From: Crossaster papposus
Taxonomy: Eukaryota > Echinodermata > Asteroidea > Velatida > Solasteridae
NCBI GenBank assembly: GCA_037893245.1
Contig: JBAIAA010000446.1
Span: forward strand, 186,001-250,000
DNA length: 64,000 nt
Direction of reading: 5' to 3'
Below the pieces are notes generated by a model. It had not been told where the DNA came from and searched no databases. It saw only the letters and a program-made list of their open reading frames with translations. Below are positions 40,514 to 63,384 of the stretch, in pieces; within the stretch, counting starts at the first letter, position 1; each line of letters begins with the position of its first letter. A program made the position numbers and the translations under genes.

Positions 40514-40880
40514 CTTTAATGATTTTAAGGTGATATTTATTCTTGGAAACGGAGAAAGAATGCGAAATTGCCTTGAAACAACAAGGCTGTACTGTGACTA
40601 ACCTAACGAACGTCGTTTTGTCAACGAGAAATGGCGAGAAATTACACATTAATGAAACATTATAATTTAAACTGACAAATTGAAAGTAAACATTTTTTTT
40701 TAACAATATGTTATTAAAATTCCTGAAATTTAAGAGCTTAAAGCAGATGATTGAGTTAAATATTCAAGGAAACTCAAGCGAGAAAATGGGAGATTTAACT
40801 TGCATCATGCGCGTAATGCATGTTTTCTTTCGAAGGTCGGCCAGAGGTTAAAGGTCAAAGTACCGATTCGGCCAGCAAGG
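40514..40880. promoter_or_regulatory. Bidirectional HADHB-HADHA promoter
   Basis: Only 367 bp separate the divergent start codons of the two subunits, so one promoter must serve both. No TATA box is seen on the HADHA side near the start; the central part is AT-rich and the HADHA-proximal 80 bp is more GC-rich (GCATCATGCGCGTAATGCAT, GGTCGGCCAGAGG). Vertebrate HADHA and HADHB share the same head-to-head arrangement, which would give equal expression of the two subunits. Confidence 0.9.
40845..40857 (+). promoter_or_regulatory. DR1 nuclear-receptor site (HNF4 / PPAR-RXR type)
   Basis: AGGTTA-A-AGGTCA is two hexamer half-sites in direct repeat with one spacer base. It lies 23 bp before the HADHA ATG. 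DR1 sites bind HNF4, COUP-TF and RXR heterodimers, which control fatty-acid oxidation genes in animals. The match is seen; the function is inferred. Confidence 0.6.
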
Positions 40881-43800
40881 ATGGCGACCACACGAGTTTT
40901 CGGCGCTCTGCGAGCAATTTCTCAGACAAATTTCACGCATTCTGCAGGTTTGTAAAACATAGAAATTAATTTATTTGTATGTAGGTGTTATAACAGTTTA
41001 CATTTGATTTAATGTTCATGGAAAGCATTTTTCCTAGACCCAGAAAATACGATTTTGTTAAGGAAAAGTCAACCGTCGCTTTTCGCAATTACGTTAAGAA
41101 TGACCGGGGGGGGGGGGGGGGGGTGTTAGCGCCACCAACGTTGAGAGATATCTCATGTTCCTATTTTTGCCTGGGGTGTGCAAAATCCTAATTAGAGAAG
41201 AAATATCCTTTTAATGTTTTAGGCTTACTTAATACTTAGAATTAAACTCTCCAATCCAACACTTTCTTCGGGCAAGCGCATCAGTTTTTTTACTTCACAT
41301 AAAAGTATGTCCGCTTTTAAAACCCCAGACAGCACAACCGCCATGTTGGCTTTAAATTTAAAGGCCGTTTTCCGAACTCCACCTAATATAAGGCTCGGTC
41401 TCAGAGGCTCACCATTGGCAAACTGCATGAACAAAGCCAAACTTAAACAGAGATGAAGCTTGGTTCGGAAAACGGCATAGGAAGTAAATAAATAGCGCCC
41501 TCTGGAATAGAGCTATCTTTTCCAGAGGGCGCTATTAATGCTGTTTTCAAACCCACCATCGTCTCTGGTTTGGCGGGTATCTGCATAAAACAAATATTAA
41601 GTGGCTTTAAATTGTGAAATGGGAGGAATTATTATCGCAAGGGGAAATCTGGATTTTCTTTTCATTTCACTGGGCTTTGTGAAATGGACAATTTCAGATT
41701 TTACCTCGTGCTAATATTCATCCTATTCCACTACGAGCCACTCAATATTTGTAAGTTGTATAAATATTGTTCAATGTCGTCTATTGAATGCAGAAACAAA
41801 CTCACCCACCCAGCCTATGCTGGGATAAGTTTGAAAGAGACAAAAGTTTTCAAACTAAGCAAACAAAAATACACAACATTTCTTGTAAACGATGCCTTTA
41901 TTAATTCACAACAAATCAGCGTAAACAGATATTCCTACAATTCGTCTTAACAAAGTAACACAATTAGCTAGGTGATATAATCATGCAATAATTAGCAGAC
42001 TTACGAATACTGAAGATTATATACATTGTACAAAACGTCCAATTGGGCAAAGATTTAAAATGAATTTGGCATGTCCTGCGCAGTGTTCGAAACGAATACG
42101 TGGATGCACCAGATTTGTCCTCATTTTCTAGGACATTGTAAACTTAACTTTTCATTTAATCCTAACCTACGATTATTTAGTAAGAACCATACCCATCCTG
42201 GTAAATTCCAACAGTAAATTCTGATAGTACACGCATCTGTATGTCTAACCCAAGTAGTCACTTTAAAGATCTAGTATCCATTCTAACAAAACATGACAAA
42301 ACATGCAGCTGGGTTCCGGTGGGTTAAACAAAATAAGATGGATGTCCGAAATATTGAAAAACTTCTTGCCGGTATGACTTCGAAAGAAAAAAAACTATGC
42401 ATGTGTACAATAACTACAAATGACTGCTGTTATTTCAATGTTGTAAGATTACACTGTAAAAGATAAGTATACTAAACTACATTATCTTAGACAGTAAAGA
42501 GTTAAGAATAGCATGCAAGTAATTAAAAAAGCATCTAAATAGCGTAACAATAAAAAGATTCATAACATGATGAAATTATTTACATTAAATCCTGGCTTGG
42601 ACCTCGAACTGTTGGACAAGTACTACATTTATAGAAGGTAATCTCAACAATATGCTGCCACCAACCAACACAGTTTCTGTAAAATCCAGTAAACGACTTG
42701 AGGTTTGGGGGAAGAAGAGTACGCGTGCATGTACCTCCAAGTTGTAATTTGTTGACATAAGATGTTTTTCTTCAAAGTACATTTACAAAACTCTAATAAT
42801 TAATAACATGGGCTTGACCCTAACCCCCTTACGGATCTTGAAAAAAGCCTTATAGGAATTGGGGAAAATGGAGATCACATATACCTAAAATTACCTCCAA
42901 GCTATTTGTTTAAAACAAAATTGCTCTTGGAAGTACACCTGTACACAGTGTTATATTGTAGATAATTTTGATTGGAAGTCAACAATAACAGTTTGAAGGT
43001 AGGAACTCATACACAGGTCTTTTTGATAAAAACTCTTAAACAGTCTGCCATCTAAATGCTTAGCTTCAATTTGCAAAATACTTTTAAACCTCCTGCTATC
43101 TGAACAGTCAAAGACAGTCACAAGTTCAATCAATTTTCCCTGCCATGCGTTTGTACGCAGGCTAGTCACAAACAGTGGAATCATACTTCTTGTGGGTGAT
43201 GTAACTAGTCAAATTCCATCAACGGACAAAAGCAGGTAACTATATACAGCTAGGTTATCAATCGCCTTTACTTTCATAAACAGTCCCAGCCAGTCAATCC
43301 TGATTTATGTAGGCAGGAAGCACCGATTGATTGAATTAGACTGCCAGGATCATGGAATGGCTTTGTGGAATTTGCCATTCAGAGAGGGAGTACATTGTTG
43401 CGAAGAATGTTGCAAGCACATCAGACCATAGCGATGAATAAAATGCGGTCACAGTTTGTAATTCTTCAGAGACGCCCTTGGATGCAAGACTGGTCTATCG
43501 TCTTCTAGCGACAGTCAAACACTTGCGTCCTATGACGTAGCAGAATGGAATTCCAAGAAGCATTGGCCTCTGCACAAATGAACATTACAGCTGGTACATC
43601 CTGTGCGGGTTTGTATGTGCTTACCCCTCTTAGTCTTCCTTCCCGCCCTGCGACACTGCATGCACATCTTGGGATAGAGAACCTTCATTCTGGTGCACAA
43701 ATGGTTTGGCCCATTGATGGCTGGAACTGGAGCGGCATTGGTGGTCTGGTACGCTGTGGTGCCCTCGGCGAAACCTGCGATGAGAGCCGTGGCGATGCTG

Positions 43801-46800
43801 ACGGTGAACATACGATGGTTGAGCTGTTTGCCTTCTGTGTTAACTTTATAGCAGATCCAGGCGTTTACGCGAGCGATGTCGATGAGGAAGAAGAAAAGCC
43901 GCTTCCAGGCCTTGTACTTGCGGTTGCAGGAGTGGTAGGAGCGCAGGTGGTTAGAGTGCTCCACCCCGCTTTTGAACTTCATGTAGTTGATAGCCTGAGC
44001 AGGTGCTGGGATGTTGGCTTTGGTGACCGTCTTAGCTCCAGTTTCCCGGATATTTCTAGTGAAGAAGTCTGTCAGTTGGTTGCGGTATCCCTGGTGGCAT
44101 GTGGAGAGAAGCGACGTCACCTTGACATCTCGCCAAAGAACCAGTGTCATCTGCCCCTGCTGCCATGCGACACTGGTCCCCCTGGGAGACAGCAGCATTG
44201 TTTCCATCAGACGGGACTTGCCCTTGGCATTTCTCTGTCTGGAGTTGACATCATCTGGTAAACCCTTGGACGATATGGAGACGGCACCACACAAGTACGT
44301 CTGATTTATCAACAGGTCTTTGGCCAGCATGGTGGATGTGTATTGTGGCCCGCAGAACAACTGATGATACCGGCCAAGAAACGGCTGCATCATCTGGAGA
44401 GGAAGCTTGTGCCTTTTTCCAACAACCTGTGCGTGAAGCATCATGTGGAGGAGGTACCCCGAGCTTGCTTCGCATACGGCATAGACGTCACTGCCGACAT
44501 CAAACCGAAGTTGAGGAAAGAATGCCCTCCTGGTATTGGCTTTCAAAGAGACCTCATCAAGGCACAGCTCCTTTCTAGGGTTGTAGTTCATTTTGCAGGC
44601 TTCATTGACCGTGTACCAGACAAGCTTCAGAGGGGCTATTGGGTTAGCATCTCTCTTACCGTCGGATTTCTTGGCCATTTTGGTGGGATTAGAGCAGGTC
44701 AGGTGTTCAGCGATGAGGTTGAATCTGCCCCGGGTCATTGTGGAAGCCACCAGTTGGTTTCGGAGCCCAGGATGGGTTGACCAGTCATCTTCGTTGTTCA
44801 TGTTGGTGTGAACCCCCTGAATCATGCGAATCCCGATCCATGCTTTGATTTCTGCCGGTGTGGTAGCCTTGAAGTTAGCATGAGGCTCTCCAACCATGTT
44901 GGTGTATCGGGCAATCTTGGTGAACAGAAACATTGGAAAGAAGCTCAAAAAGTAGGCCAGAGGATGGTCATCATCTGGCCGTTCTATGGCCGGGCCATAT
45001 GGTTGTCTGCCTTGAAATTCTTGCACAGGTACATCCTTTAGAGACCTGGTCCATCCGTGGCGATCTGTGGAGTGCTTCTGAGGAATGTTAGAAGTACCCT
45101 GCATATTAGAAGTGCTATGTGACTGAGCCTGTACCCAATCAGCCAGCCAATCACCGCCTAACCCTTGCTCCATATTTGAAGGCTGCTTGCAGGGCCTCTT
45201 GGCTGGGGTAGGCTCTTCGACGTCAGAAGAATCGGAAGTGGATTCCTCGTCGGACGGTATGGGAGAGAAGTCGCTCTCGTCCAATGGAACATCACTATTC
45301 TCATCAGTTACGACTTCTTCCTCAAAGTAGACTTCTTCTTCCATTGTGTCAACCTCTTCTTCTTTGATGCCATCAAGTGAATAGTAGTCAAACTTGGGGA
45401 TAATGGGGAAGCTCGAGCCACTAGCGCAAGGGTCCAGGTCTTGGCTGGCGACAGAGCTGCTTGTTTTTGTGGTCACTCTGGTCGGAAGAACAACAACTTT
45501 GCCTTGGGGCTGGGTCGAGAGTGGGCCGCAGACTTGAACAGGAACTGGGTAAGCATGAGAGAGGCTTGAGGATAGGTCTGCCTCTGTCTTGGTGATTTCA
45601 ACCACTGGTGCATCAGTGTCTTGGTTCAAGGCTTGCCGCAGAATTTGGCCAGGGACCTCAACAGGCATCGGGTAAACGACAGTAAGGCTTGAAGCTGCAT
45701 CAAATGGCGGATCCGTTGGGGTGGACCTTCGGCTGTTGGACTGATCGGTGGTCTTGGCAGCCATGATGATTTGGCAGGCTGTTGTTTAGTCACTGGTATT
45801 TGACTTCACTGGTGACTGAAGCTGTACTGTAGACAAAGATGCTCTAGACCGGATTTCAAGTCTGTAATACAAAAGGTTGTGTTATAAGTTAAGGTGTCGT
45901 GTAAAATTATCAGATAATTCATGTACATTCTTCATAACTTAATTTATTGATTTATTAAAAAGGTTGTAGGAGAGTCGTGAGCAATCAGTTTATTTCTGTT
46001 AGTTGATTCTTTGGGGAGAAATTGTTTTTGTTCATTATCAATTCGAGCGATTCACAATACCTAGAAGCTGCCGTTGGAGGCGCAAATCCTGCTATCCCCG
46101 CAGTGCATCATGGGAAAAAGTCGGCATCGGTTTTAAAAACAGTATTCATTTTGCATGAACTCATCAGTTTTTACGTCTTTTTGGACGCGCACGATTAAAG
46201 TTTTATTTTTTGTCTGCAAATAACAATGTTTTAATTAACGACGCTGCCGGATACATTTATGTTTGTGTTGTACCTCGTGTGAACAATGAAGAATAGAAAT
46301 TTCACTACAGTATGATATACGGAAGAAGTCGACCGTAAAGTTTAAAAGTGGCACTTTTGAGTCAAACGCTTGGTGGCGCACTGCATTGTGAATCGCCCGA
46401 ATTATTTACACACGTGTAAAAACTTTATTATCACTCTTGACAAAGCAACTTTGAAATTCAAGCGATTTTTTTTTTTAATGCAAATTGAAGTAAATTGACA
46501 ATTGTAAATGATAAAATATCAATTTGTTGAGAAATAAAGCTAATGCAAATGGTAAACTTATACTTGAATGCCATTTATTTTCTTTCGCGATTGGGATTTG
46601 TTTTAATAATGTGTAATAATACATTATTTGTACAAAATAATGGGCTGGATGCTAAATTTGTAACAAAATTTGCCTTAATTATTATCGTTCTGTATTTAAA
46701 TTAGGGGTCTAGTTTTTTATGTCCCATCTGACCCTTTTTTGAATGCCTATTTTTACCTCCAAAGCCAATAAAAGTTAAGTCAATTTCAGTAACACTTGCA

Positions 46801-49800
46801 TATGAAATTACTAGGTCAGGTTTTCCAGGACAAAACAAAATGTCACACTTTGGGGCCCCTTATTTATGGGCTGACGACGTAAAAACCTGTACATTAATAT
46901 TGGAAAAGCTTGCAATTGTTTTTAAGAAATATTGCAAAAAGGTCATTTGCGCTTTCAGAAGTTAATTTGAATGTGTTGAATAATGTGGATTGTAGCATTT
47001 TGTCGTTTAAACTGCTTTACCCCAAAATGTTCACCCCCCAAAAAAAAACAAAAAAAAAAAACAAAAAAAAACACCAAACTGCCCTTTATCTATGACATAC
47101 ATAAAATATTAACAGTTTGTAATATTGCTAACCAAGTGGAACCCTTATGATAACTAGCCTAGGGTAGACATTACATATATCACCAGTAGTATACAATGTA
47201 CATGTCCATTGCACATGGTTACTGTGCACATTGTAGTACAGTTGGCTACAATGTACTACATTGATGCATGGAGGTAGGAAACCATGATTGATGCAGCCAT
47301 GGTACAGCTACACAACCAGAGCCCATGATGAACACCACTGTGTCAACACCCACACTAACCCACAAAACCAAACAGCTAAATTCACTCAAATCCTCATCTC
47401 ATCACAGTTAGGACTTTGTATAATATAGAAGCAGTACTTGCCTGGTAAATCAAGCTGATATGTACACTGTAAGTGTAAACGGAGAATATATGAACTGGAT
47501 TGACAAGACAGAGTTGGCGCTGGCCTTGGGATCTCCTGTACATGTGCTGTGCTGTGGTGCTCACTACCTGATATACTGTACATACAAGCATGCATTGCAT
47601 TCCATAAACCTCCACCCTACCTATATCTACAGTGTTTATTCAAGACCTCCACTTCACCTTTAACCTTTGCACAATACAAGGCTTGTGTGGTTTTGAGCCC
47701 CACTGCAGTTTGATCCATTGAGCCATGTGGATAGATTACAGTGTCTACACAGTAGGCATGGCACATGTGTTTTGTATAGGGCCTAACTTACGTGCCTGGC
47801 TGGCCGTGCACTATTCCTACACACTGTCTGCCTTTGATGCATAGAGTAATAGGGCTTGTATGGAGTACAGGCTACATTGTATTATGTGGAGTTTCATTGG
47901 TTGTGACAGCCTGACACACAAGTAGTAGATAAAGCATCAAGTATTTGGGTTTGTATGGATTACAGGCTACATTGTGTTATGTTGTTGAGTTCAATTGGTT
48001 GTGATAGCCTAGCACACAGCTGGGCTAAATAATGGGCATGTATGGAATACAGGCTATTGTTTGAGGAGGCTGGATCCCCACAGAATTTAGTATGAATTAC
48101 TTGTGTTGCATTTTGTGGGATTTGTTGGAGCCCCAGGGGAAATAGGGTCAGAATGTCATTTTCCAAAAGGCTGTAGTGGTTGTAATAAATGTTAATTTCC
48201 GTAGAGTATAAATATATAAAATTCCCCAAGGAAAAAAGGTTAATTTCTTGTGCAATGATTCAAATATAAAATTGCGGGTTATATTTAAACACAAAATCAG
48301 ATATAATTTGTTGTTTTGATAAGAGAAGTTAAATTGCAATTTTCAGATTATTTTCAGGTGGAATTAGCTAATAACAATATCTTTTTAAAAACTAAATTTG
48401 TATCTCAGAATTTTTGGACTACCATAGAAAGTAATAGCAAAGTGTTTTAATCAGGTGATTAACAACTATATCACTCAAATTTCAAATGATTTGTTTTAAT
48501 TTTATTTTAAAAAATAAAGAAATAATAATAATACCATGGCTGAAATATACTACTTGCATCACATATTCCATGTCCAACTAGTATGTATGTCAATTAATGT
48601 GCTTATTACAGAAGAAATTATTGACGAAAAATAAAAATGAAAAGTAATTCTTCATTCCTACAAAATTCTGCATAAACTTTTAATTATTTCGTTCTCTTTT
48701 ATGTTAATTCTTCTTGCAGGTTGTCGAAACATGGCCATGCCCAGGTATATTTCAGTGTCGGCTTTGCGGGTTGCAGGTAATTTTGAGAACTATTTTTCTG
48801 GGTGTGATCACTCAGGCATCCAATAGTTGACCCTTAACCCTTGCTCTTGTTTACACTTCAATGCACTTCAATATTTGCCCCAAAATCCCCCCCCCCCCCC
48901 CCCCCAGCTGTTGGACATTGCATCTGACTTATTAGGCATTCTTTTTCAATTTGGCAGCCAATAAGCATGTCAGCTATGATGTCAAGGATGATATTGCTGT
49001 TGTACGAATGAACTCTCCAGATTCTAAGGTAAGATTGGCCACTTCTGGACCTCATTGCAAATATAAAAGGTTTTCAGTTAGTTGTCAGAGTTGTATTTGA
49101 GTTGCTGTAAGTCCTTTCACAAACAGTCACGATTCCAGTCAAGAGTCCAGTCACGAGTCCAGTCACGATTCCAGTCACGAGTCCAGTCACGAGTCCAGTC
49201 ACAAGTCCAGTCACGAGTCCAGTCACGAGTCCAGTCACAAGTCCAGTCACAAGTCCTTTCATAAAGCCAGTCGCAAGTAACTGGTTGAACAATGTTAACA
49301 AATGTTAACAAATGTTAACAGTTTATCTGAATAGCTAGTGACTTGACTTGAGTCTGAAGGACTTGTGATGGACTTGTGATGGACTTGCAGGGACTTGCAG
49401 GGACTTGCAGGGACTTGCAGGGACTTGCAGGGACTTGCAGGGACTTGCAGGGACTTGCAGGGACTTGCAGGGACTTGCAGGGACTTGCAGGGACTTGCAG
49501 GGACTTGCAGGGACTTGCAGGGACTTGCAGGGACTTGCAGGGACTTGCAGGGACTTGCAGGGACTTGCAGGGACTTGCAGGGACTTGCAGGGACTTGCAG
49601 GGACTTGCAGGGACTTGCAGGGACTTGCAGGGACTTGCAGGGACTTGCAGGGACTTGCAGGGACTTGCAGGGACTTGCAGGGACTTGCACGGACTTGCAC
49701 GGACTTGCACGGACTTGCACGGACTTGCACAGACTCAAATGCAACTCTGTTAGTTGGGTTTAATTGTCAAAGAATAATTGGCAAATATTTCTTGGTATCT

Positions 49801-52800
49801 CTAGCTGTCAAAATAACAAACCAGGGTATAAGGATTCGGGTATTAAACTTGTTGTTTTGAATCTATTACTTAATATGGCTGACAAAACATTTTTAATGTT
49901 GCGTTTGAAAATTAAAATTTCAATTTGTTGAGATTGACTACTTTGTTGCGATGAATCGTTTTCATTTGGCCAGGTCAATACGTTGTCCAGGGAGTTCAAC
50001 AGCGAGGTAGAAAGCGTCATGGGTGAGATTTGGCAGAATGATGCCGTCAAGGGTGTGGTTCTCATCTCTTCCAAGCCAGATTGCTTCATAGCAGGAGCTG
50101 ACATCAAGTAAGACATTGAAGCTGTCTTGTTGACTTCTTAGAGAATTCTTAGAGTTATACAAATATTACATTTAAGCAAGAGTGAGATCACATCTTTGAG
50201 TCGACTTGGTTTATTTCTTGATTACCAATTTTCATTTCTGCAGGATGCTGGCTTCTTGCAAGTCGGCCGAAGAGGTAAGTCTTTTTGACACTTTTTTTAT
50301 GTCCCAAGGTTTTGAGCAAGATTGACTCGTACATTTTGATCATTCTGTAAATTTTGGGTGCAAAGTGTGACATTTCTCCAGCCCCCGTTGTAAATATCTT
50401 TTAGAATGACTTCAATTAAACAAACTGTTGAGTAGATAGCTTGTTGTCTATAGTCACTGCATTTAAACACCGTTGACCTTGCCGATTGTAGATTATTGTA
50501 GATGATTGTTTTGTGGGTTTTAATGAATTCTTTTTTTATTTTTAGAGAACAGTTTCGTTGTCATAACTATTAATATCATTTGTGTTTTGTTCTTCAGGTG
50601 GCAGAATTATCCACTAATGGTCAGAAGCTACTAGCCAGGGTAGAGTCTAGCTCTAAGCCAGTTGTAGCAGCTATCATGGGCTCTTGTCTTGGTGGAGGTC
50701 TGGAGGTAAGATATAGCTGTCATGTCGTCCATGGATTATTATCCATCAATGGTCAGAAGCTACTAGCCAGGGTAGAGTCTAGCTCTAAGCTGGTTGTATC
50801 AGCTATCATGGGCTCATGTCTTGGTGGTGGTCTGGAGGTAAGATATAGCTGTCATGTCGTCCATGGATTATTATCCATCAATGGTCAGAAGCTACTAGCC
50901 AGGGTAGAGTCTAGCTCTAAGCCAGTTGTAGCAGCTATCATGGGCTCTTGTCTTGGTGGTGGTCTGGAGGTAAGATATAGCTGTCATGTCGTCCATAGAT
51001 TATTATCCACAAATGGTCGGAAGCTACTAGCCAGGGTAGAGTCTAGCTCTAAGCCAGTTGTAGCAGCTATCATGGGCTCTTGTCTTGGTGGTGGTCTAGA
51101 GGTAAGATATAGCTGTCATGTTGTCCATGGATTATTATCCATCAATGGTCAGAAGCTACTAGCCAGGGTAGAGTCTAGCTCTAAGCCAGTTGTAGCAGCT
51201 ATCATGGGCTCTTGTCTTGGTGGTGGTCTAGAGGTAAGATATAGCTGTCATGTTGTCCATGGATTATTATCCATCAATGGTCAGAAGCTACTAGCCAGGG
51301 TAGAGTCTAGCTCTAGGCCAGTTGTAGCAGCTATCATGGGCTCTTGTCTTGGTGGTGGTCTAGAGGTAAGATATAGCTGTCATGTCGTCCATGGATTATT
51401 ATCCATCAATGGTCAGAAGCTACTAGCCAGGGTAGAGTCTAGCTCTAAGCCAGTTGTAGCAGCTATCATGGGCTCTTGTCTTGGTGGTGGTCTAGAGGTA
51501 AGATATAGCTGTCATGTCGTCCATGGATTATTATCCATCAATGGTCAGAAGCTACTAGCCAGGGTAGAGTCTAGCTCTAAGCCAGTTGTAGCAGCTATCA
51601 TGGGCTCTTGTCTTGGTGGTGGTCTAGAGGTAAGATATAGCTGTCATGTTGTCCATGGATTATTATCCATCAATGGTCAGAAGCTACTAGCCAGGGTAGA
51701 GTCTAGCTCTAAGCCAGTTGTAGCAGCTATCATGGGCTCTTGTCTTGGTGGTGGTCTAGAGGTAAGATATAGCTGTCATGTCGTCCATTGATTATTATCC
51801 ATCAATGGTCAGAAGCTACTAGCCAGGGTAGAGTCTAGCTCTAAGCCAGTTGTAGCAGCTATCATGGGCTCTTGTCTTGGTGGTGGTCTAGAGGTAAGAT
51901 ATAGCTGTCATGTCGTCCATGGATTATTATCCATCAATGGTCAGAAGCTACTAGCCAGGGTAGAGTCTAGCTCTAAGCCAGTTGTTGCAGCTATCATGGG
52001 CTCTTGTCTTGGTGGTGGTCTAGAGGTAAGATATAGCTGTCATGTCGTCCATGGATTATTATCCATCAATGGTCAGAAGCTACTAGCCAGGGTAGAGTCT
52101 AGCTCTAAGCCAGTTGTAGCAGCTATCATGGGCTCTCGTCTTGGTGGTGGTCTGGAGGTAAGATATAAGCCGTTACAGCGAGTCTCAGGATTTACGAGTT
52201 CCTTCATGTTTTTCTTGTCTTGTTTCTTACTGTCCAGGTTGCGCTAAGTTGTCAGTACAGAATTGCAGTGAATGACAAGAAGACTATGTTAGGGGCACCA
52301 GAAGTCTTGCTAGGAATACTCCCTGGTGCCGGAGGAACGCAAAGACTACCAAAACTGGTAAGAATTTGTGCTTATTCAAAACAATCCGCAAATTTGATCC
52401 TCGGAAATACCCAGAACGATGTGAGACCGAGGGACTCCCCTTTTAGTCCCCCGTACTTGCTGAGAAACCACAAGATTCCACCAGCACAATGACTACAACA
52501 AAGAAGGAGGGTGGGGGGGGGGGGGTTGTTACTTCCGTCTCATATCTTGCTTATATGGAAAATGTTCATATCTCCGCCATATGTTTAACTGCAAAGTTCA
52601 ACTAACATGTACTAAAATATTAGTTGTAATCTGTAAATATTTCCTGAGGCGTTTTACGAGGAACATATTATAAAATAATAGATGTTTTCTGAGCTGATCA
52701 TTTTAAAGATTTTGGGGTTATGTAACTTAGTGCCTTGAAGGTGAGCTGTTTTGACCGCGCAACATTGCTGCAGGATTAGTGTTTATGTTAGGATTGTTTT

Positions 52801-55800
52801 TTTTTCTTTTTTCCCAGGTTGGCGTACCGAATGCCTTTGACATGATGCTGACTGGCAAGAATATACCGGCCAGGAAGTCCAAGTCTATGGGACTAGTTGA
52901 TCGCCTGGTGGAACCACTTGGTAAGTCAGGTTATTCCTTGTCAGATAGTAGTCATCTTTGATAGGAATAATAATCAGATATTTGTAAAGTGCACATATCC
53001 ACCAGTATTGCAGTTTGTGGCACTACATCGTAAACGCTTGTTAATACTTCACGCGAAAGTGAATGCGATGCGAATATGACGTAACAAAATATTCGCACAT
53101 GCACACAAACCCAGGCTGTACTCAAACCCTGTTCAACTAAAATTGTGTCGTGCCTAAGAGCACACGCACACAATAACCCCAGGCTGTACTCAAACCCTGT
53201 TTAACTAACATTTTACCTTCTTTGTTTAATTTTATTAAAGTTGTTAACTTATATTTTCCTCAGGTCCTGGCGTGAAGTCTCCTCAGGATAGGACGTTAGA
53301 ATACCTAGAGGAAGTTGCCGTCCAAGCTGCCAAGTAAGTGAACAATAAGTCAGCAATCTTGCTCTATCTGCACCCATAGTGCCAGCCTGCCTTCCTCCAT
53401 GACTGACTGACTGACTGACTGACTGACTGACTGACTGACGGACTTGGGGCCAATTTCATAGAGCTGCTAAGCACAAAAATTTGCTGAGCATGACAATTTG
53501 TCCTTTGCAAAAACAAGGTTACAGACCAAAGTTTCACCTGATCTTTATTGTTCTGGATTTATAATCAGCATGATAATTTTGGCTGGTAACCTGTTTTTAA
53601 TGAGCCAGACTTTTTTTTTGCTAAGCAATTTTTTTTGCTTAGCAGCTCTGTGAAATTGGCCCCTGGTCACTGACTGAGTCACTGACTGGGTCAAGTAGTA
53701 GAACAAGATAATTCTTACATGTGGGCGTTTTCTTTCTTTGTAGAGACATTGTTTCCAACAAGCTGAAGACTGAAAAGGTCAAAGGACTCACACAAAGTAA
53801 GTTTTTATTTGATGGTCCCATTTTGCACTTTCATCAGGTAACAAGTGTGGGGCGGGGCTTTTTGTGACTATGACACTCTATATTTGAATTTCGTAAACAG
53901 AGTTGACAGATTACGTGATGGGCCTAGGAGTTGTCAAGAACCAGATCTACAAGAGAGTCCACGCAATGGTCATGAAGCAATCTAGAGGCTTGTACCCAGC
54001 ACCACTCAAGATTATCGACGTAAGTCCGCGGTCAATACTGAGCCAATTCAGACTAAGACCACTCGTTGACTAATGGTGGATTTGTGACGTGACTTAAGCC
54101 TTAAGATCATTGACGTAAGTCCGCTGTCAATACTGAGCCAATTCAGGCTAAGACCACTAGTTGACTAATGGTGGATTTGTGACGTGACTTAAGCCTTAAG
54201 ATTATCGACGCAAGTCCGCTGTCAATACTGAGCCAATTCAGGCTAAGACCACTAGTTGACTAATGGTGGATTTGTGACGTGACTTAAGCCTTAAGATCAT
54301 CGACGTAAGTCCGCTGTCAATACTGAGCCAATTCAGACTAAGACCACTCGTTGACTAATGGTGGATTTATGACGTGACTTAAGCCTCAAGATCATCGACG
54401 TAAGTCCGCTGTCAATACTGAGCCAATTCAGACTAAGACCACTAGTTGACTAATGGTGGATTTGTGACGTGACTTAAGCCTTAAGATTATCGACGTAAGT
54501 CCGCTGTCAATACTGAGCCAATTGAGACTAAGACCACTCGTTGACTAATGGTGGATTTGTGACGTGACTTAAGCCTTAAGATCATCGACGTAAGTCCGCT
54601 GTCAATACTGAGCCAATTCAGGCTAAGACCACTCGTTGACTAATGGTGGATTTGTGACGTGACTTAAGCCTTAAGATTATCGACGTAAGTCCGCTGTCAA
54701 TACTGAGCCAATTCAGGCTAAGACCACTCGTTGACTAATGGTGGATTTGTGACGTGACTTAAGCCTCAAGATTATCGACGTAAGTCCGCTGTCAATACTG
54801 AGCCAATTCGGACTAAGACCACTAGTTGACTAATGGTGGATTTGTGACGTGACTTAAGCCTCAAGATCATCGACGTAAGTCCGCTGTCAATACTGAGCCA
54901 ATTCAGACTAAGACCACTCGTTGACTAATGGTGGATTTGTGACGTGACTTAAGCCTCAAGATCATCGACGTAAGTCCGCTGTCAATACTGAGCCAATTGA
55001 GACTAAGACCACTAGTTGACTAATGGTGGATTTGTGACGTGACTTAAGCCTTAAGATCATCGACGTAAGTCCGCTGTCAATACTGAGCCAATTGAGACTA
55101 AGACCACTAGTTGACTAATGGTGGATTTGTGACGTGACTTAAGCCTTAAGATCATCGACGTAAGTCCGCTGTCAATACTGAGCCAATTCAGGCTAAGACC
55201 ACTAGTTGACTAATGGTGGATTTGTGACGTGACTTAAGCCTTAAGATCATTGACGTAAGTCCGCTGTCAATACTGAGCTAATTGAGACTAAGACCACTAG
55301 TTGACTAATGGTGGATTTGTGACGTGACTTAAGCCTCAAGATCATCGACGTAAGTCCGCTGTCAATACTGAGCCAATTCAGACTAAGACCACTCGTTGAC
55401 TAATGGTGGATTTGTGACGTGACTTAAGCCTCAAGATCATCGACATAAGTCCGCTGTCAATACTGAGCCAATTGGGACTAAGACCACTCGTTGACTAATG
55501 GTGGATTTGTGACGTGACTTAAGCCTTAAGATCATCGACATAAGTCCGCTGTCAATACTGAGCCAATTTAGGCTAAGACCATTAGGTGACTAATGGTGGA
55601 TTTGTGACGCGACTTAAGCCTCAAGATCATTGACGTAAGTCCGCTGTCAATACTGAGCCAGGGTGCAGGGTTGAAAATGTTCAAGTGTAAAACACGTCAT
55701 GTTTTCAATCACGGATATTTGTCAAGTGTGAATCAAAGTGTTGCAAGTTATCCGTATATCGTTGCATGTAATTTAAGAAGCTCTGTGATTTGATATGATT

Positions 55801-58800
55801 GCTATTGCAGGTAGTTCGGACTGGTCTTGATCAAGGGCCAGAGGCAGGCTACCTCGCAGAGGCTCAGAGTTTTGGTGAACTAGGCATGACCCCGCATTCC
55901 AAGGGCCTCATGGGCCTCTACACTGGGCAGGTAAGTCTGGGTTTATTGTTTCAGAGTTAGGATTTTTCAACTCGTTTATAAATGGTCTAGGATTCACATT
56001 TTATTCAAATTTAGAGTCATTCCGAAAAAAATTGATTGGGCAAAAGTAGATGTCCTTGGGTTTTGTGAAAGATGACAATAGTTGGTAAGAAAATTTCAAA
56101 AAGGCTGTTATAAGCAGAAAATCGTGCTCAACACATTTGTAGAGCTTAAATCATTGAAGACAATCATGACGATATGGCCAGTATTCTTCTGTTTTAGCTT
56201 TTGAAATATTTGTCTAAACTGCAATCCTCATTTTGAAGGCTATAAAGGTGTCGCTGCGAACAACTTTAAATTACAACTTCTCTCATTTAGTTTGTTTTCT
56301 TTCGTCAGGTTATCTGTAAAAAGAACCGTTTTGGAGTTCCCCAGCGCCCAGTGAAAACGCTGAGCATCCTGGGTGCCGGTTTGATGGGCGCTGGGGTTGG
56401 GTCAGTCAGCATCGACAAGGGAATGCACGTGATTCTGAAGGACATGTCATTAGAAGGCCTCGCTAGAGGGGAGAACCAAATCTACAAAGGGTAAGTCTTA
56501 AAGATGGTACATGCTACTAGGGTCACTCTGGCTAGAGGAGAGAACCAAATCTACAAAGGGTAGGTCTTAAAGATGGTACATACTACTTGGGTCACTCTGG
56601 CTAGATGAGAGAACCAAATCTACAAAGGGTAGGTCTTAGAGATGGTACATACTACTTGGGTCACTCTGGCTAGAGGAGAGAACCAAATCTACAAAGGGTA
56701 GGTCTTAAAGATGGTACATACTACTTGGGTCACTCTGGCTAGAGGAGAGAACCAAATCTACAAAGGGTAGGTCTTAAAGATGGTACATACTACTTGGGTC
56801 ACTCTAGCTAGAGGAGAGAACCAAATCTACAAAGGGTAGGTCTTAAAGATGGTACATGCTACTTGGGTCACTCTGGCTAGAGGGGAGAACCAAATCTACA
56901 AAGGGTAAGTCTTAAAGATGGTACATACTACTTGGGTCACTCTGGCTAGAGGAGAGAACCAAATCTACAAAGGGTAAGTCTTAAAGATGGTACATACTAC
57001 TTGGGTCACTCTGGCTAGAGGGGAGAACCAAATCTACAAAGGGTAAGTCTTAAAGATGGTACATACTACTTGGGTCACTCTGGCTAGAGGAGAGAACCAA
57101 ATCTACAAAGGGTAAGTCTTAAAGATGGTACATACTACTTGGGTCACTCTGGCTAGAGGGTAGAACCAAATCTACAAAGGGTAGGTCTTAAAGATGGTAC
57201 ATGCTACTTGGGTCACTCTGGCTAGAGGAGAGAACCAAATCTACAAAGGGTAGGTCTTAAAGATGGTACATACTACTTGGGTCACTCTGGCTAGAGGAAA
57301 GAACCACATCTACAAAGGGTAAGTCTTAAAGATGGTACATGCTACTTGGGTCACTCTGGCTAGAGGAGAGAACCAAATCTACAAAGGGTAAGTCTTAAAG
57401 ATGGTACATACTACTTGGGTCACTCTGCTAAGCTGTTAATTATTCCCCATCTCGTAGTTTTCACCAAATATAAATCGTTTGTGATCTGATTTGTCTTTCA
57501 GGTTGAACCAGAAGGCCAAGAGAAAGAGAATAACGACGTAAGTTTATAATCACTGATTAAAAGATATGGTGATTGTGTAATATCAACCTTCATTGTTCTA
57601 TTTTACGATGTCGAGTAGTGCATACACAGTTTATGGTGCATCAGGACCAGTTTGAGAGCACAGTGTGTGTGACAAACAAAGATTCCCAGGCTAACGTAGA
57701 GAAGAGTTGTATTCAAGTCCCTACTAGTCATTTCACAAGTCCAATTCAGTCACAAGTCCAGTCACAAGTCCAGTCACAAGTCCAGTCACAAGTCCAGTCA
57801 CAAGTCCAGTCACAAGTCCAGTCACAAGTCCAGTCACAAGTCCAGTCACAAGTCCAGTCACAAGTCCAGTCACAAGTAAGCTTAGTCACAAGTCCAGTCA
57901 CAAGTCCAGTCACAAGTCCTTTTATAAAGCTAGTCGCAAGTAACTGGTTGAACAATGACAAAGGAATGCTTTTGTTAACAGTTCATCTGAACAGCTAGTG
58001 GCTTGACTTGAGACTGAAGGACTTGTGATGGACTTGCAGGGACTTGCAAGGGACTCAAATACAGCTCTGACTCTGAGCGACTTGAACGTGTGATTTCCAG
58101 CATGCCAATTAGAAGTGTTTATGATTTGTGTTATTGTCCTATTTGTGTTCAGTTTTGAGAGGGATCATCTGTTATCCAACCTGAGCGGTCAGATTGACTA
58201 CAAGAACTTTGACCAGTGTGATATGGTGATTGAGGCCGTCTTTGAGGACATCAACATTAAACATCGAGTCATTAAGGAAGTGGAAGCTGTAAGTTAAAAT
58301 CAGGAACTTTTATTGCCTCGCTAAGAAATCAATGACACCATAGAGCACTCTGGCCATTTGGGATGCTACAAGGAGAATAGACTGGGCAGGTTTGGTCGAT
58401 GCATTGCTTAATCAGTTAGCGCCGGATGACGTATATACACGCAAAGTTTTTCCCCAGATTCAAAACGGATGACGCATAAACACGTCACGAGCAAGGCAGG
58501 AAATGTCTGTCAGCAGCGAGCAAGGCCGGAAATGGGAGGTGTGCTTCCCAGTACCATCGGCCTGAACCCGCCTCAGATCGAGTTCTGTTAAAATTAATTC
58601 CGCTCCTCGGCTCGGTGATGTTAAAATAATCCAGGCGTGAACTGCTTAAAGTGTTTGCAAACAGCAAGAATAGCGGCCGGCACGCGACGGTGTATGGCTC
58701 TCAATCATGAATATGTATGAAGTATAGAATAGCCAATCAAAAGAGAGACTCTTTCATTGATCATTTGAATCGTTTATTTTTATATATTTTTTGCAGGTTA

Positions 58801-61800
58801 TACCTGATCACTGTATTTTTGCTTCCAACACGTCCGCTCTTCCTATCACCAAGATAGCTGAAGCTAGCATCCGGCCAGAGAAGGTAAACAAACAACTTAC
58901 CAATTGTTCAACTAACGCTATGGGTACTTTTCATCAGATATTATGTTTTGTTAACTTTCGCTTCTCCTGTGTATGACACTATGTCCAAACCTTTTTACTA
59001 GAATCCTCACCTAACCGTACCAACTTTTGATGCGCTCTGCTTATAAACACATTGAATTAGAAAACAAAAACGCAAGAAGTTTGCAGATATACAATGTAGA
59101 CAAAAAAGAGAAGCAGAGGATTTGGTTGATACACTCTGATAATTGTCCCCAAAAAGAAATGTGTACTTACATTAAACTTCTCTTGCTCTTGTCAGATAAT
59201 ATCATTGCTTGTACAGGTTGTTACATCTCATGGTTTATTTACAAGATGTATTTCCTTTCTTCCGTCAATTCCTCGATGGATTCAGGTCATAGGCATGCAC
59301 TACTTCTCTGGTTCCTGTCAGATATTCTCATTGCTTGTACAGGTTGTTACATCTCATGGTTTATTTACAAGATGTATTACTTTTCTTCTGTCAATTCCTT
59401 GATGGATTCAGGTCATAGGCATGCACTACTTCTCTGGTTCCTGTCAGATAATATCATTGCTTGTACAGGTTGTTACATCTCATGGTTTATTTACAAGATG
59501 TATTTCCTTTCTTCCGTCAATTCCTCGATGGATTCAGGTCATAGGCATGCACTACTTCTCTGGTTCCTGTCAGATATTCTCATTGCTTGTACAGGTTGTT
59601 ACATCTCATGGTTTATTTACAAGATGTATTTCCTTTCTTCTGTCAATTCCTCGATGGATTCAGGTCATAGGCATGCACTACTTCTCTGGTTCCTGTCAGA
59701 TATTCTCATTGCTTGTACAGGTTGTTACATCTCATGGTTTATTTACAAGATGTATTTCCTTTCTTCCGTCAATTCCTCGATGGATTCAGGTCATAGGCAT
59801 GCACTACTTCTCTGGTTCCTGTCAGATATTCTCATTGCTTGTACAGGTTGTTACATCTCATGGTTTATTTACAAGATGTATTTCCTTTCTTCCGTCAATT
59901 CCTCGATGGATTCAGGTCATAGGCATGCACTACTTCTCTGGTTCCTGTCAGATATTCTCATTGCTTGTACAGGTTGTTACATCTCATGGTTTATTTACAA
60001 GATGTATTACTTTTCTTCTGTCAATTCCTTGATGGATTCAGGTCATAGGCATGCACTACTTCTCTGGTTCCTGTCAGATAATATCATTGCTTGTACAGGT
60101 TGTTACATCTCATGGTTTATTTACAAGATGTATTTCCTTTCTTCCGTCAATTCCTCGATGGATTCAGGTCATAGGCATGCACTACTTCTCTGGTTCCTGT
60201 CAGATATTCTCATTGCTTGTACAGGTTGTTACATCTCATGGTTTATTTACAAGATGTATTTCTTTTCTTCCGTCAATTCCTCGATGGATTCAGGTCATAG
60301 GCATGCACTACTTCTCTGGTTCCTGTCAGATATTCTCATTGCTTGTACAGGTTGTTACATCTCATGGTTTATTCACAAGATGTATTTCCTTTCTTCCGTC
60401 AATTCCTCGATGGATTCAGGTCATAGGCATGCACTACTTCTCTGGTTCCTGTCAGATATTCTTATTGCTTGTACAGGTTGTTACATCTCATGGTTTATTC
60501 ACAAGATGTATTTCCTTTCTTCCGTCAATTCCTCGATGGATTCAGGTCATAGGCATGCACTACTTCTCTGGTTCCTGTCAGATATTCTCATTGCTTGTAC
60601 AGGTTGTTACATCTCATGGTTTATTTACAAGATGTATTTCCTTTCTTCTGTCAATTCCTCGATGGATTCAGGTCATAGGCATGCACTACTTCTCTGGTTC
60701 CTGTCAGATATTCTCATTGCTTGTACAGGTTGTTACATCTCATGGTTTATTTACAAGATGTATTTCCTTTCTTCCGTCAATTCCTCGATGGATTCAGGTC
60801 ATAGGCATGCACTATTTCTCTCCTGTGGACAAGATGCAGCTTCTCGAGATCATCACGACAGACAAGACGTCTAAAGACACGGCCGCCTCAGCCGTCAACG
60901 TGGGACTAAGACAGGGCAAAGTGGTCATCGTAGTCAAAGATGGTCCTGGGTTCTACACCACCAGGATCCTAGGTCCAATGCTGTCTGAAGCAGTCAGAGT
61001 TCTGCAGGTAAAGCTGAAGTCAGATTTGAACCTATAACCACTGAAATGCCGTGCTTGTGCTCTACCAACTGAGCTATCTAGTGCTGACTTGTCAGTATTC
61101 CCTTTTCTTAATACCCATCTTCTTTTTATGATACAATTGTTGGCTGAAAACAATTTGACTGCAGTTGTATTCAGCAGTTTGTACATTTGTTGACTTTCAC
61201 TTTGCTGCTGGGAACAAAATAATTGTATATATTTCCTCGTGCTTCTAATCATTGGCCCCTGAAAATGGCTAAAATACCTTTTTTCTTGAATGTTGAGAAT
61301 TGCAAACTGTTTGTTTTGACTTACAGGAAGGAGTAAATCCTAAGGATCTAGACAAATACACCACGGCCTTTGGATGGCCTGTGGGTACAGCTACCTTAGC
61401 TGATGAGGTGGGCATTGATGTGGCTGCACATGTAGCAGAGTTTCTTGGAGGTTCCTTCGGTACACGGTTCGCTGGCGGTGATATCAACGTCTTGAAGGAC
61501 CTAGTCAAGGCTGGACACTTGGGTGAGTGGTGGTAGCGATTGACAATGCCTCCAATATTGGGTGTGACACTTGGTGAGTGGTGGTAGCGATTGACAATGC
61601 CTCCAATATTGGGTGTGACACTTGGTGAGTGGTGGTAGCGATTGACAATGCCTCCAATATTGGGTGTGACACTTGGTGAGTGGTGGTAGCGATTGACAAT
61701 GCCTCCAATATTGGGTGTGACACTTGGTGAGTGGTGGTAGCGATTGACAATGCCTCCAATATTGGGTGTGACACTTGGTGAGTGGTGGTAGCGATTGACA

Positions 61801-63384
61801 ATGCCTCCAATATTGGGTGTGACACTTGGTGAGTGGTGGTAGCGATTGACAATGCCTCCAATATTGGGTGTGACCCTTGGTGAGTGGTGGTAGCGATTGA
61901 CAATGCCTCCAATATTGGGTGTGACACTTGGTGAGTGGTGGTAGCGATTGACAATGCCTCCAATATTGGGTGTGACACTTGGTGAGTGGTGGTAGCGATT
62001 GACAATGCCTCCAATATTGGGTGTGACACTTGGTGAGTGGTGGTAGCGATTGACAATGCCTCCAATATTGGGTGTGACCCTTGGTGAGTGGTGGTAGCGA
62101 TTGACAATGCCTCCAATATTGGGTGTGACACTTGGTGAGTGGTGGTAGCGATTGACAATGCCTCCAATATTGGGTGTGACACTTGGTGAGTGGTGGTAGC
62201 GATTGACAATGCCTCCAATATTGGGTGTGACACTTGGTGAGTGGTGGTAGCGATTGACAATGCCTCCAATATTGGGTGTGACACTTGGTGAGTGGTGGTA
62301 GCGATTGACAATGCCTCCAATATTGGGTGTGACCCTTCACTGACCTATTTTATAAACTCGGTATACTCGGTGTTTTCCTGAGAGTTTTCCTGAGAAATCA
62401 CTCGGATACGACTCGTATCCACAACCTCCTGCCTTCTAGACGTCTTCCCACTAGACCACCGAGCTAGCCGGGGATCGGCTGGTTGGATGCAATCTGATTA
62501 GCAGCAGGTACCGCAACCAAATGTTTCATAAGATGACATTTGCGTCGGGTGATGTCAATTCAATATTAGAATGTTTGCTCTTCACCTGCGTGTATTTTAT
62601 AAACTCTGTTTACTCTGTATTGTCCCGAGGAATCATTAACTTTTCTCACGTTATTTATTTGTGGTATTTTTCTCAGGTCGTAAGTCAGGCAAGGGTTGCT
62701 TCATCTACGAGGGCCGCTCCAAGAACCGTGAGGTGAATCCTGCAGCCGAAGAGATCATGAAGAAATATCTGATCCCTAAGAAAGGGGCCGACTCCATGGA
62801 GGATGTACAGCTCCGTCTGGCATCACGGTTCGTTAATGAAGCTGTCATGTGCTTACAGGAAGGAATCTTGATCTCACCGGTAAGGGGCCAGACTATTGGT
62901 ATTTCAGGGATGCCTCGTGTTTAAAAACCCAAATAAACAAATCATTGGAGTCACCTTGAACAAACTCTTTAAGGAATAGACTGAGACCTAATGAAGTCAC
63001 GCTTTGTTTATATATGCACTTTCCTATCGGAGCTAAGGCGGGATGCCAGACGAAGTAGGGACAGACTCGCTCATAGGAAAGCACACATGTTAACAAAGCG
63101 TAACGTCATTAGGTTTTAGGCCTTAGGCCTATCGTTAATTGCTCAGCCAAAAGGCTTCCAAGAAGAATTTGTATGGGGACACTTCAAGAATCAGACACAG
63201 ACACACTGTTCTCTTAATTTTGTCCCAAGTGGGAATGGAACCCAGGTCTTAAAGTCATAGGGCCATGGGAGCAACCATATTTAGCAAGGCCCTAGCTGAT
63301 TATTCCTGGTATTTCTCTCTCTTTCTTAGGTTGAAGGTGATATCGGAGCTGTCTTTGGTCTTGGTTTCCCGCCCTTCCATGGAG
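40881..63384 (+). CDS. HADHA: Trifunctional enzyme subunit alpha, mitochondrial (3' end beyond window)
   Basis: It hydrates long-chain enoyl-CoA and oxidises 3-hydroxyacyl-CoA with NAD+. Exons: 40881-40947, 48720-48776, 48958-49028, 49974-50107, 50244-50274, 50598-50705, 52238-52357, 52818-52920, 53264-53333, 53744-53796, 53901-54019, 55811-55930, 56309-56490, 57502-57537, 58153-58288, 58797-58883, 60798-61007, 61327-61522, 62677-62879, 63330-63384; all phases join, giving 719 codons. Human HADHA has 763 residues, so roughly 45 codons are missing beyond the window. The N-terminus [15 protein letters not shown] is a typical mitochondrial presequence. Five introns carry tandem arrays that copy an exon edge with its splice site. 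Confidence 0.96.
41362..41477. mobile_element. Short MITE with GCCGTTTTCCGAAC ends
   Basis: GGCCGTTTTCCGAACTCC and GGTTCGGAAAACGGC are inverted ends 116 bp apart. The interior GCATGAACAAAGCCAAA also occurs in the 14.45-15.35 kb element. Confidence 0.8.
41491..41536. repeat. Perfect 16-bp stem hairpin
   Basis: AATAGCGCCCTCTGGA and its exact complement TCCAGAGGGCGCTATT with a 14-base loop. Probably a fragment of an inverted-repeat element. Confidence 0.85.
43530..45764 (-). CDS. PiggyBac-type transposase-derived protein, catalytic residues altered
   Basis: An intact 744-codon frame inside HADHA intron 1, opposite strand. Residues 1-190 are acidic/Ser-Thr-rich with a duplicated YP(M/V)PV(E/Q)V motif (31-37, 72-78) and a basic PAKRPCK stretch (187-193). 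About 240-650 is the DDE_Tnp_1_7 core: [56 protein letters not shown]. The C-terminus (690-740) is a Cys/His zinc-binding domain. Asp403 fits the first catalytic Asp. The Asp that normally precedes (N)(F/Y)YTS is Gly472, and that of the GVD motif is Glu602. Cut-and-paste activity is therefore doubtful, yet the frame has no stop or frameshift, which suggests a recent copy or a domesticated gene. Confidence 0.88.
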   Translation of the reverse strand: MAAKTTDQSNSRRSTPTDPPFDAASSLTVVYPMPVEVPGQILRQALNQDTDAPVVEITKTEADLSSSLSHAYPVPVQVCGPLSTQPQGKVVVLPTRVTTKTSSSVASQDLDPCASGSSFPIIPKFDYYSLDGIKEEEVDTMEEEVYFEEEVVTDENSDVPLDESDFSPIPSDEESTSDSSDVEEPTPAKRPCKQPSNMEQGLGGDWLADWVQAQSHSTSNMQGTSNIPQKHSTDRHGWTRSLKDVPVQEFQGRQPYGPAIERPDDDHPLAYFLSFFPMFLFTKIARYTNMVGEPHANFKATTPAEIKAWIGIRMIQGVHTNMNNEDDWSTHPGLRNQLVASTMTRGRFNLIAEHLTCSNPTKMAKKSDGKRDANPIAPLKLVWYTVNEACKMNYNPRKELCLDEVSLKANTRRAFFPQLRFDVGSDVYAVCEASSGYLLHMMLHAQVVGKRHKLPLQMMQPFLGRYHQLFCGPQYTSTMLAKDLLINQTYLCGAVSISSKGLPDDVNSRQRNAKGKSRLMETMLLSPRGTSVAWQQGQMTLVLWRDVKVTSLLSTCHQGYRNQLTDFFTRNIRETGAKTVTKANIPAPAQAINYMKFKSGVEHSNHLRSYHSCNRKYKAWKRLFFFLIDIARVNAWICYKVNTEGKQLNHRMFTVSIATALIAGFAEGTTAYQTTNAAPVPAINGPNHLCTRMKVLYPKMCMQCRRAGRKTKRGKHIQTRTGCTSCNVHLCRGQCFLEFHSATS
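46041..46402. repeat. 18-bp inverted repeats 362 bp apart
   Basis: ATTCGAGCGATTCACAAT (46,041-46,058) and ATTGTGAATCGCCCGAAT (46,385-46,402) are complementary with one mismatch. They could be ends of a small element or flank the transposase gene's promoter. Confidence 0.7.
46099..46117 (-). promoter_or_regulatory. ZNF143/Staf-like promoter motif upstream of the transposase gene
   Basis: The minus-strand reading TTTCCCATGATGCACTGCG is close to the SBS motif (CCCA..ATGCA..(A/G)CG). It lies 335 bp upstream of the transposase ATG. A donor (CTTCTAG|GTATTG at about 46,061) and an acceptor (TATTACAG before 45,861) between them would give a spliced 5' UTR. This is a prediction only. Confidence 0.35.
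48888..48905 (+). repeat. Poly-C run
   Basis: Uninterrupted C tract in the intron between HADHA exons 2 and 3. Confidence 0.95.
48958..53333 (+). CDS. HADHA: HADHA enoyl-CoA hydratase half (exons 3-9)
   Basis: Crotonase motifs in order: [30 protein letters not shown] (CoA-binding and first oxyanion-hole strand); [10 protein letters not shown] (second oxyanion-hole glycines and catalytic Glu); [29 protein letters not shown] (second catalytic Glu); [22 protein letters not shown]. All key residues seen in active relatives are present in the true exons. Confidence 0.96.
49086..49749 (+). mobile_element. hAT-like MITE enlarged by two internal minisatellites
   Basis: Target duplication TTAGTTGT / TTAGTTGG (49,078-49,085 and 49,750-49,757). 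Ends CAGAGTTGTATTTGAG and CTCAAATGCAACTCTG are inverted. The middle (GTAACTGGTTGAACAATG, AATAGCTAGTGACTTG) is the family core. A 12-bp array (CAC(G/A)A(G/T)TCCAGT) fills about 49,125-49,255 and a nearly pure 10-bp array (GGACTTGCAG, about 35 units) fills 49,386-49,735. Confidence 0.9.
50706..52157 (+). repeat. 132-bp array: 11 extra copies of HADHA exon 6 with its splice donor
   Basis: The donor sequence GTAAGATATA occurs at 50,706 and every 132 bp to 52,158. Each unit holds about 100 of the exon's 108 nt, including [10 protein letters not shown], plus 33 bp of intron. Because 132 is a multiple of three, nine units read through in the HADHA frame; a single G-to-T change (CCATTGATT near 51,788) puts a TGA in the next. 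The copies lack a clear acceptor, so the first exon with any of the donors is the expected splice choice. Confidence 0.97.
53400..53439 (+). repeat. (GACT)n microsatellite, 10 units
   Basis: Perfect tetranucleotide run in the HADHA intron after exon 9. Confidence 0.97.
53446..53663. mobile_element. 218-bp MITE with GGGGCCAATTTCA ends
   Basis: GGGGCCAATTTCATAGAGCT and AGCTCTGTGAAATTGGCCCC are terminal inverted repeats of about 25 bp, with GCTAAGCA continuing the pairing. No coding sequence. Confidence 0.9.
54020..55660 (+). repeat. 95-bp array: 17 units carrying the HADHA exon 11 donor
   Basis: GTAAGTCCGC(T/G)GTCAATACT starts at 54,020 and every 95 bp to 55,635. Each unit ends in CTCAAGAT(T/C)AT(C/T)GAC, the last 15 nt of the exon, directly before the next GTAAGT. 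Use of a later donor would shift the frame, since 95 is not a multiple of three. Confidence 0.97.
56309..63384 (+). CDS. HADHA: HADHA 3-hydroxyacyl-CoA dehydrogenase half (exons 13-20)
   Basis: [12 protein letters not shown] is the Rossmann NAD-binding loop. [32 protein letters not shown] (catalytic His), [22 protein letters not shown] and LGPMLSE follow, then the C-terminal domain with [37 protein letters not shown] and [17 protein letters not shown]. The terminal exon (FRFVDLYGA region in relatives) is not in the window. Confidence 0.95.
56491..57428 (+). repeat. 69-bp array: 13 units carrying the HADHA exon 13 donor
   Basis: GTAAGTCTTAAAGATGGTAC (some units GTAGGT) recurs every 69 bp from 56,491 to 57,388. 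Each unit includes about 32 nt of exon end (GCTAGAGGAGAGAACCAAAT, CTACAAAGG). In the gene frame the first donor base triplet reads TAA or TAG, so any later donor gives immediate termination. Confidence 0.97.
57704..58069 (+). mobile_element. hAT-like MITE copy with internal 12-bp minisatellite
   Basis: Ends AGAGTTGTATTCAAGTCC and GGACTCAAATACAGCTCTG. The core AAGTAACTGGTTGAACAATG and GAACAGCTAGTGGCTTG matches the 49-kb copy. The array CACAAGTCCAGT (about 13 units, 57,745-57,920) replaces the short left arm. The target duplication is not clear. Confidence 0.85.
58412..58645 (+). mobile_element. TTAA MITE copy 5
   Basis: TTAA at 58,408-58,411 and 58,646-58,649. Ends TCAGTTAGCGCCGGATG and CAGGCGTGAACTGC. 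In the HADHA intron after exon 15. Confidence 0.92.
59160..60797 (+). repeat. 126-bp array: 13 copies of the HADHA exon 17 acceptor and exon start
   Basis: GGATTCAG|GTCATAGGCATGCA recurs every 126 bp, with AG at 59,285, 59,411 and so on to 60,797. Each copy has the polypyrimidine tract, the AG and 24 nt coding VIGMHYFS, which includes the catalytic His segment. Only the last copy continues into the real exon. Long reading frames through the array (up to 615 codons) result from the 3n unit length. Confidence 0.97.
61021..61090 (-). mobile_element. tRNA-like SINE head, reverse orientation
   Basis: The minus strand reads AGATAGCTCAGTTGGTAGAG and later ATAGGTTCAAATCTG, the same A/B-box pair as at 20.6 and 31.5 kb. 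It starts only 13 bp after the exon 17 donor. Confidence 0.6.
61523..62338 (+). repeat. 51-bp array: 15 units carrying the HADHA exon 18 donor
   Basis: GTGAGTGGTGGTAGCGATTG recurs every 51 bp from 61,523 to 62,288. Each unit ends GTGACACTTG, matching the exon end GGACACTTGG. Units differ almost only by an ACACTT/ACCCTT change at three or four positions, so the array is very homogeneous. Confidence 0.97.
62339..62676 (+). other. Intron remainder before HADHA exon 19
   Basis: It contains an imperfect direct repeat (TATTTTATAAACTC(G/T)G with GTTTTCCTGAG / GTCCCGAGG) and a tRNA-like GACGTCTTCCCACTAGACCAC CGAGC stretch around 62,438-62,466. No exon fits. Confidence 0.5.

Follow-up and report, generated by a model that had tools for sequence, protein, structure and literature searches.

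The closest described counterparts of the arrays reported here are the 'mirages' of amphioxus, minisatellites lying across exon–intron boundaries, which have been described in the globin genes BflGb6 and BflGb9, with a mirage in Adh3 cited alongside them (both PMC3087553); PGBD5 and troponin C have been added to the list (PMC3902484). The precedent at an amphioxus Adh locus that was suggested in the initial annotation of this DNA is therefore real. Two further systems are related: in human genes within segmental duplications, variable internal tandem repeats at exon–intron boundaries alter gene structure (PMC2812944), and in the potato RdRp gene an intron was gained by tandem duplication (PMC4974935). 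Among the literature matches listed, some of them judged by title and the opening of the abstract, none described mirages from a sea star.

The window analysed is a stretch of 64,000 nucleotides from the sea star Crossaster papposus (contig C446, positions 186001–250000), and the assembly searched comprises 1.02 Gb in 1841 contigs. The window contains the HADHA gene, whose protein, typed from open frames, is 93% identical to that of Patiria miniata, 89% to that of Acanthaster planci and 87% to that of Asterias rubens. HADHB (minus strand) and HADHA (plus strand) are arranged head to head (window 36184–40949), a layout also known from vertebrates. The long first intron of HADHA contains a 751-residue open frame on the minus strand (43533–45785); it encodes a transposase domain, DDE_Tnp_1_7 (E 1e-49), and we take it to be piggyBac-like. 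Exon edges were placed by mapping Patiria HADHA (P0001) onto the window and reading the splice signs, by which exons end at 50705, 54019, 56490 and 61522, and one exon starts at 60798.

Tandem Repeats Finder (TRF) recovered all five minisatellites that had been noted in the gene, with units of 51–132 bp, 11.8–17.4 copies and 96–99% matches, all on the plus strand. A1 (50606–52167; 132 bp × 11.8) takes in 100 nt of the exon at 50598–50705 and copies the donor at 50706 twelve times; A2 (54008–55660; 95 bp × 17.4) includes 12 nt of exon and the donor at 54020; A3 (56462–57427; 69 bp × 14.0) includes 29 nt of exon and the donor at 56491; A5 (61514–62337; 51 bp × 16.1) includes 9 nt of exon and the donor at 61523. 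A4 (59176–60821; 126 bp × 13.1) lies at the opposite type of boundary, covering the acceptor AG at 60796–60797 and 24 nt of the exon starting at 60798. In each case the unit consists of an exon end, its splice site and intron, so the mapping and splice signs bear out the proposal that four arrays copy donors and one an acceptor. The arrays are not, however, seeded exactly at the junction, as had been suggested; they overlap it, reaching 9–100 nt into the exon. A sixth array (C446:250350–250815; 49 bp × 9.5), just past the window, lies over the HADHA stop codon, so that every copy carries the stop along with the last part of the reading frame. Short-period arrays (10–12 bp, CAGTCACAAGTC type) are also present, at window positions 49109–49729 and 57747–57941 and at C446:182952–183143; their flanks are similar at several places, as if one dispersed element carried them.

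Alignment of the individual copies reveals that the splice site is kept unevenly. A1 retains AGGTAAGA in 12/12 copies, A4 retains CAG in 13/13 and A5 retains its site in 16/16. In the other two, not every copy keeps a good site: A2 has a good donor in 14 of 17 copies, the GT having been lost from three, and A3 reads GTAAGT in only 7 of 14 copies, with GTAGGT in the other seven. In A5, the exonic G of the exon-side copy is missing from 15 of the 16 copies. The conserved protein is fitted only by the copy adjoining the exon body, and the remaining copies drift. Judged from their sequences, the copies of the HADHA arrays do not look as though they are maintained as working splice sites. The copies of A5 are nearly identical to one another, and those of A1–A4 carry distinct variants of their own; in A4 the variants come back every five units (unit 1 with 6, unit 2 with 7), which points to block exchange.

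The possibility that the repeats are translated was considered and rejected: the frame through A1 is almost open, with a single in-frame stop, the frame of A4 is broken by two stops, and frames through A2, A3 and A5 run into stops. A dispersed element as the source of the arrays was likewise discarded, as only A5 matched other units among the 18 compared, and by 10–11 bp. The units of different arrays are thus unrelated, which implies that each array arose in place.

The placement of the arrays within HADHA was compared with chance by removing the extra copies and placing the units at random on the gene, using exon edges some of which were 1–2 nt off. For the six long-unit arrays (A1–A5 and the stop-codon array), the probability that at least five lie on a splice edge is 0.0007, or 0.010 if the long first intron is left out; adding three short-period arrays (5/9 on edges), again without intron 1, gives P = 0.018. 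From HADHA alone the excess at splice edges (P 0.0007–0.018) is therefore suggestive, not strong.

A diagonal scan of C446:1–280000, used because a blastn self-search overlooked the case in HADHB, gave 61 duplication clusters, 32 of them outside satellite blocks. These 32 were classified by hand from sequence and homology, and not blind, with the genes concerned backed by Pfam or homologs; on this count 13 cross a splice junction, four more end 2–7 intronic nt from an exon, one is that over the HADHA stop codon (250350) and 14 are at neither a junction nor a stop codon. Besides A1–A5, the duplications spanning a junction are at donors of an RBR gene (IBR domain; C446:44550), actin (75342) and SPO11 (106268), at an acceptor of VPS28 (67786; spanned by 1 nt of exon), at three sites in a LOXHD1-like gene, and at a donor of HADHB (minus strand; window 39082–39281, C446:225082). 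The last is an identical duplication of 70 bp (period 130, 1.5 copies) that takes in roughly 45 nt of a thiolase exon together with the donor, the exon being confirmed by a Thiolase_N domain in Pfam. The LOXHD1-like sites are a donor at C446:181380, a plus-strand donor at window 16511–16801 (C446:202511; 142 bp × 2, with 87 nt of exon) and a plus-strand acceptor at window 25766–25851 (C446:211766; 44 bp × 2, with 24 nt of exon). Those ending just inside an intron are in an XK-related gene (C446:145661), a choline transporter gene (C446:159518) and twice, on the plus strand, in the LOXHD1-like gene: at window 576–1093 (C446:186576; 49 bp × 10.5), 7 intronic nt away from an exon whose donor GT is at 569, and at window 21156–21423 (C446:207156; 90 bp × 3), 6 intronic nt (GTAAGA) away from the end of another. 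The other 14, not all closely inspected, are at C446 positions 42515, 44081, 52893, 71198, 84152, 102211, 103296, 111762, 142316, 210831, 212657, 218784, 263007 and 276670.

The LOXHD1-like gene (window 1–33500 and neighbouring sequence) has PLAT, beta-trefoil-like and FN3 parts and relatives in lancelets and sea urchins; it contains several other duplications besides the three that span junctions. The gene-rich part of the contig is flanked on both sides (C446:80–101 kb and 252–274 kb) by a satellite of 318–335 bp with a 107 bp sub-repeat.

The automated counts exclude one duplication that lies in a retroelement block; of the remaining 31, 26 have a period of at least 30. With edges defined by a coding score (15 nt of slack; thresholds 5, 6 and 8), 15/26 lie near coding edges both at threshold 5 (6.7 expected, P 0.0005) and at threshold 6 (5.0 expected, P 0.00025); at threshold 8 the count is 10/26 (3.2 expected, P 0.00025). 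Outside HADHA, 10 of 20 do so at each of the two lower thresholds (5.1 expected, P 0.015; 3.9 expected, P 0.0012), but at the strictest the excess is not significant (5/20 versus 2.5, P 0.09). When the LOXHD1-like gene is set aside as well, the counts are 8/12 at thresholds 5 (3.1 expected, P 0.003) and 6 (2.3 expected, P 0.0005), and 3/12 at threshold 8 (1.4 expected, P 0.16). An earlier version of this analysis, run on TRF arrays, gave 11/23 versus 3.2 at threshold 6.

Edges snapped from protein matches (tblastn) gave 7/15 versus 3.8 (P 0.054) with known edges misplaced, and because known edges were missed in this way a gene finder was written. It is small and rough, the codon table and splice matrices on which it relies were partly trained on these same genes and donors, and it placed 14 of 16 checked HADHA exon starts (of 21 exons) within 2 nt. 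By this method 13/26 duplications are at edges versus 3.9 expected (P 0.00025, the lowest value that 4000 trials allow), a set that differs from the 13 counted by hand in missing actin and A2 and in counting 210831 and 276670. Outside HADHA the figure is 9/20 versus 3.0 (P 0.002); for 178–251 kb it is 9/15 versus 3.7 (P 0.0035), and the first 178 kb show a weak excess (3/10 versus 0.9, P 0.057). In this contig, then, duplications touch exon edges more often than they would if placed at random.

Elsewhere in the genome, 20 myosin-matching stretches of 651 bases on 19 other contigs had no array at an exon edge; one of the stretches has a short duplication (period 22) away from the match. A genome-wide pattern of two donor 9-mers 31–61 bases apart gave 392 matches versus 629 for the reversed control, and hence no excess in raw counts; among the matches listed, dispersed families and short-period arrays dominate both sets. 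On C446 itself two arrays are picked up by the donor 9-mer if any gap is allowed, and none within the searched gap range; with one scrambled control 9-mer there were six pairs, all from a single array. Among the matches listed for contigs 1–106, a count by eye gives three arrays confined to one locus and with a unit length of 30 bp or more for the donor pattern (C3, C6 and C41); for the reversed control it gives two or three (C79, with C22 and C90 of one family). Upstream flanks were taken for three arrays, all from the donor set; two of these arrays begin in exons, and the third flank, on C3, lay inside its array. The array on C41 is at a Prp31_C exon (PRPF31; aligned to human Prp31 386–425). 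That on C181 is at a HEAT exon, which scores below the Pfam cut-off and is similar as well to Mot1-type helicase chains, 7zb5_E among them; we presume it to belong to a Mot1/BTAF1-like gene. With C446, these two cases bring the contigs that carry exon-edge arrays to at least three. The bias of tandem duplication to splice junctions put forward in the initial annotation is accordingly supported for C446, the part outside HADHA included, and finds no backing in the genome-wide donor-pair pattern or the myosin exons. C446 may be unusually rich in such arrays.

We consider it probable that these are neutral minisatellites of the mirage kind, in which the exon-side copy stays intact and which may arise preferentially at the borders of conserved sequence. 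Each would start as a short local tandem duplication across an exon edge and would grow later by unequal exchange or slippage. Splice sites are commonly chosen by exon definition, a general principle applied here to these arrays: it would pick the exon-side site, and the other copies would then be removed as intron. The arrays are presumably tolerated because the exon-side copy remains intact, and the gene is probably left unharmed by them. As to the origin of the bias, exon edges might be places where sequence common to two diverged haplotypes gives way to sequence that they do not share, and break repair or template switching might stall at such a border and leave a short tandem duplication. 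This is the least certain part of the proposal, and we advance it tentatively, as a possibility falling somewhat short of probable. It is favoured because it would cover the HADHA stop-codon array too, and in view of the high heterozygosity of both sea stars and lancelets. Twelve few-copy duplications bear on the form of the joins: six are two-copy tandem pairs with an overlap or filler of −5 to +7 nt at the join, four are partial, with 29–60 nt between copies, and two, of about three copies, were left out. End joining of staggered breaks would leave joins with such small overlap or filler.

Several other explanations merit consideration. There may be no bias at birth, duplications occurring anywhere among dense exons, those at junctions surviving by virtue of one intact copy, and the five in HADHA reflecting luck together with the choice of a striking window. 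Such an account fits the P values of 0.010–0.018 from HADHA alone in its exon-rich part, the 20 myosin exons without an array and the donor-pair pattern without excess, but it is rather unlikely in view of the excess outside HADHA, seen with the gene finder (P 0.002) and at two of three coding thresholds. The hotspot might instead be specific to splice sites, R-loops, pausing or the splicing machinery breaking junctions in the course of transcription or splicing. The 17 of 32 duplications that span or nearly reach a splice site in the hand count point that way, and the tight joins are compatible with break repair; nonetheless, a mechanism specific to splicing is not required, as the sixth HADHA array spans a stop codon rather than a splice site, and we regard it as unlikely.

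Selection that keeps the arrays as a supply of spare splice sites, one of the two causes originally suggested, would accord with the site being present in every copy of A1, A4 and A5. The losses described above for A2 (3/17), A3 (GTAGGT in 7/14) and A5 (15/16 without the exonic base) tell against it: use of these decayed copies would shift the frame or fail, and selection for redundancy is very unlikely where copies lose splice sites or exon bases. Creation of introns by tandem duplication (the Rogers model) has in its favour that many units hold AG followed by GT, and that mirages were proposed as a source of new introns (PMC3087553). The defining feature of that process, both splice sites deriving from the duplicated segment, is absent from 5/5 HADHA arrays, the partner splice site of the intron being outside the array each time, so that these appear to be older introns that have grown at one end; here, too, we attach very little probability to the alternative. 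An artefact of assembly is the least probable of all, for while the copies within some arrays (A5) are nearly identical and the analysis draws on a single assembly, the copies of A1–A4 bear distinct variants and the A1 sequence occurs at a single place in the assembly.

If the preference for exon edges is taken further, a doubtful but possible generalisation is that exon edges, acting as haplotype borders, are preferred birthplaces of minisatellites in this sea star and perhaps in further deuterostomes of high heterozygosity, amphioxus among them, introns growing from their ends by the copying of splice sites, and stop codons being copied likewise. Were the bias true genome-wide, it would amount to a mutational hotspot at exon edges, offer a route by which introns lengthen from their ends, and provide natural test cases for the choice of the spliceosome among at least ten near-identical sites. 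It would also extend mirages from lancelets to echinoderms, and their cause could then be compared across species of different heterozygosity.

The potato RdRp case resembles the sea star arrays in that a duplication crosses an intron–exon boundary, but there a new intron arises, whereas here existing introns are lengthened with one splice site outside the array. The human repeats are likewise minisatellites at exon–intron boundaries; they lie in recent gene copies, often with changed transcripts, whereas the sea star genes are conserved and their protein is, as far as can be read from the DNA, unchanged. In those mirage features that sequence could test, the HADHA arrays agree with amphioxus: the repeat unit lies across the exon–intron boundary in all of A1–A5, both 5′ and 3′ exon boundaries are affected, AG/GT signals are present in many but not all copies (14/17 in A2; all in A1, A4 and A5), and the units are of similar size. 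Splicing and length variation were shown for amphioxus, while the arrays described here are known from the sequence of one assembly. They differ from those mirages in being in a sea star, and hence in another phylum, in reaching up to 27 copies, in numbering five within one gene, in having a related array over a stop codon, and in that an excess over random placement has been measured in one contig.
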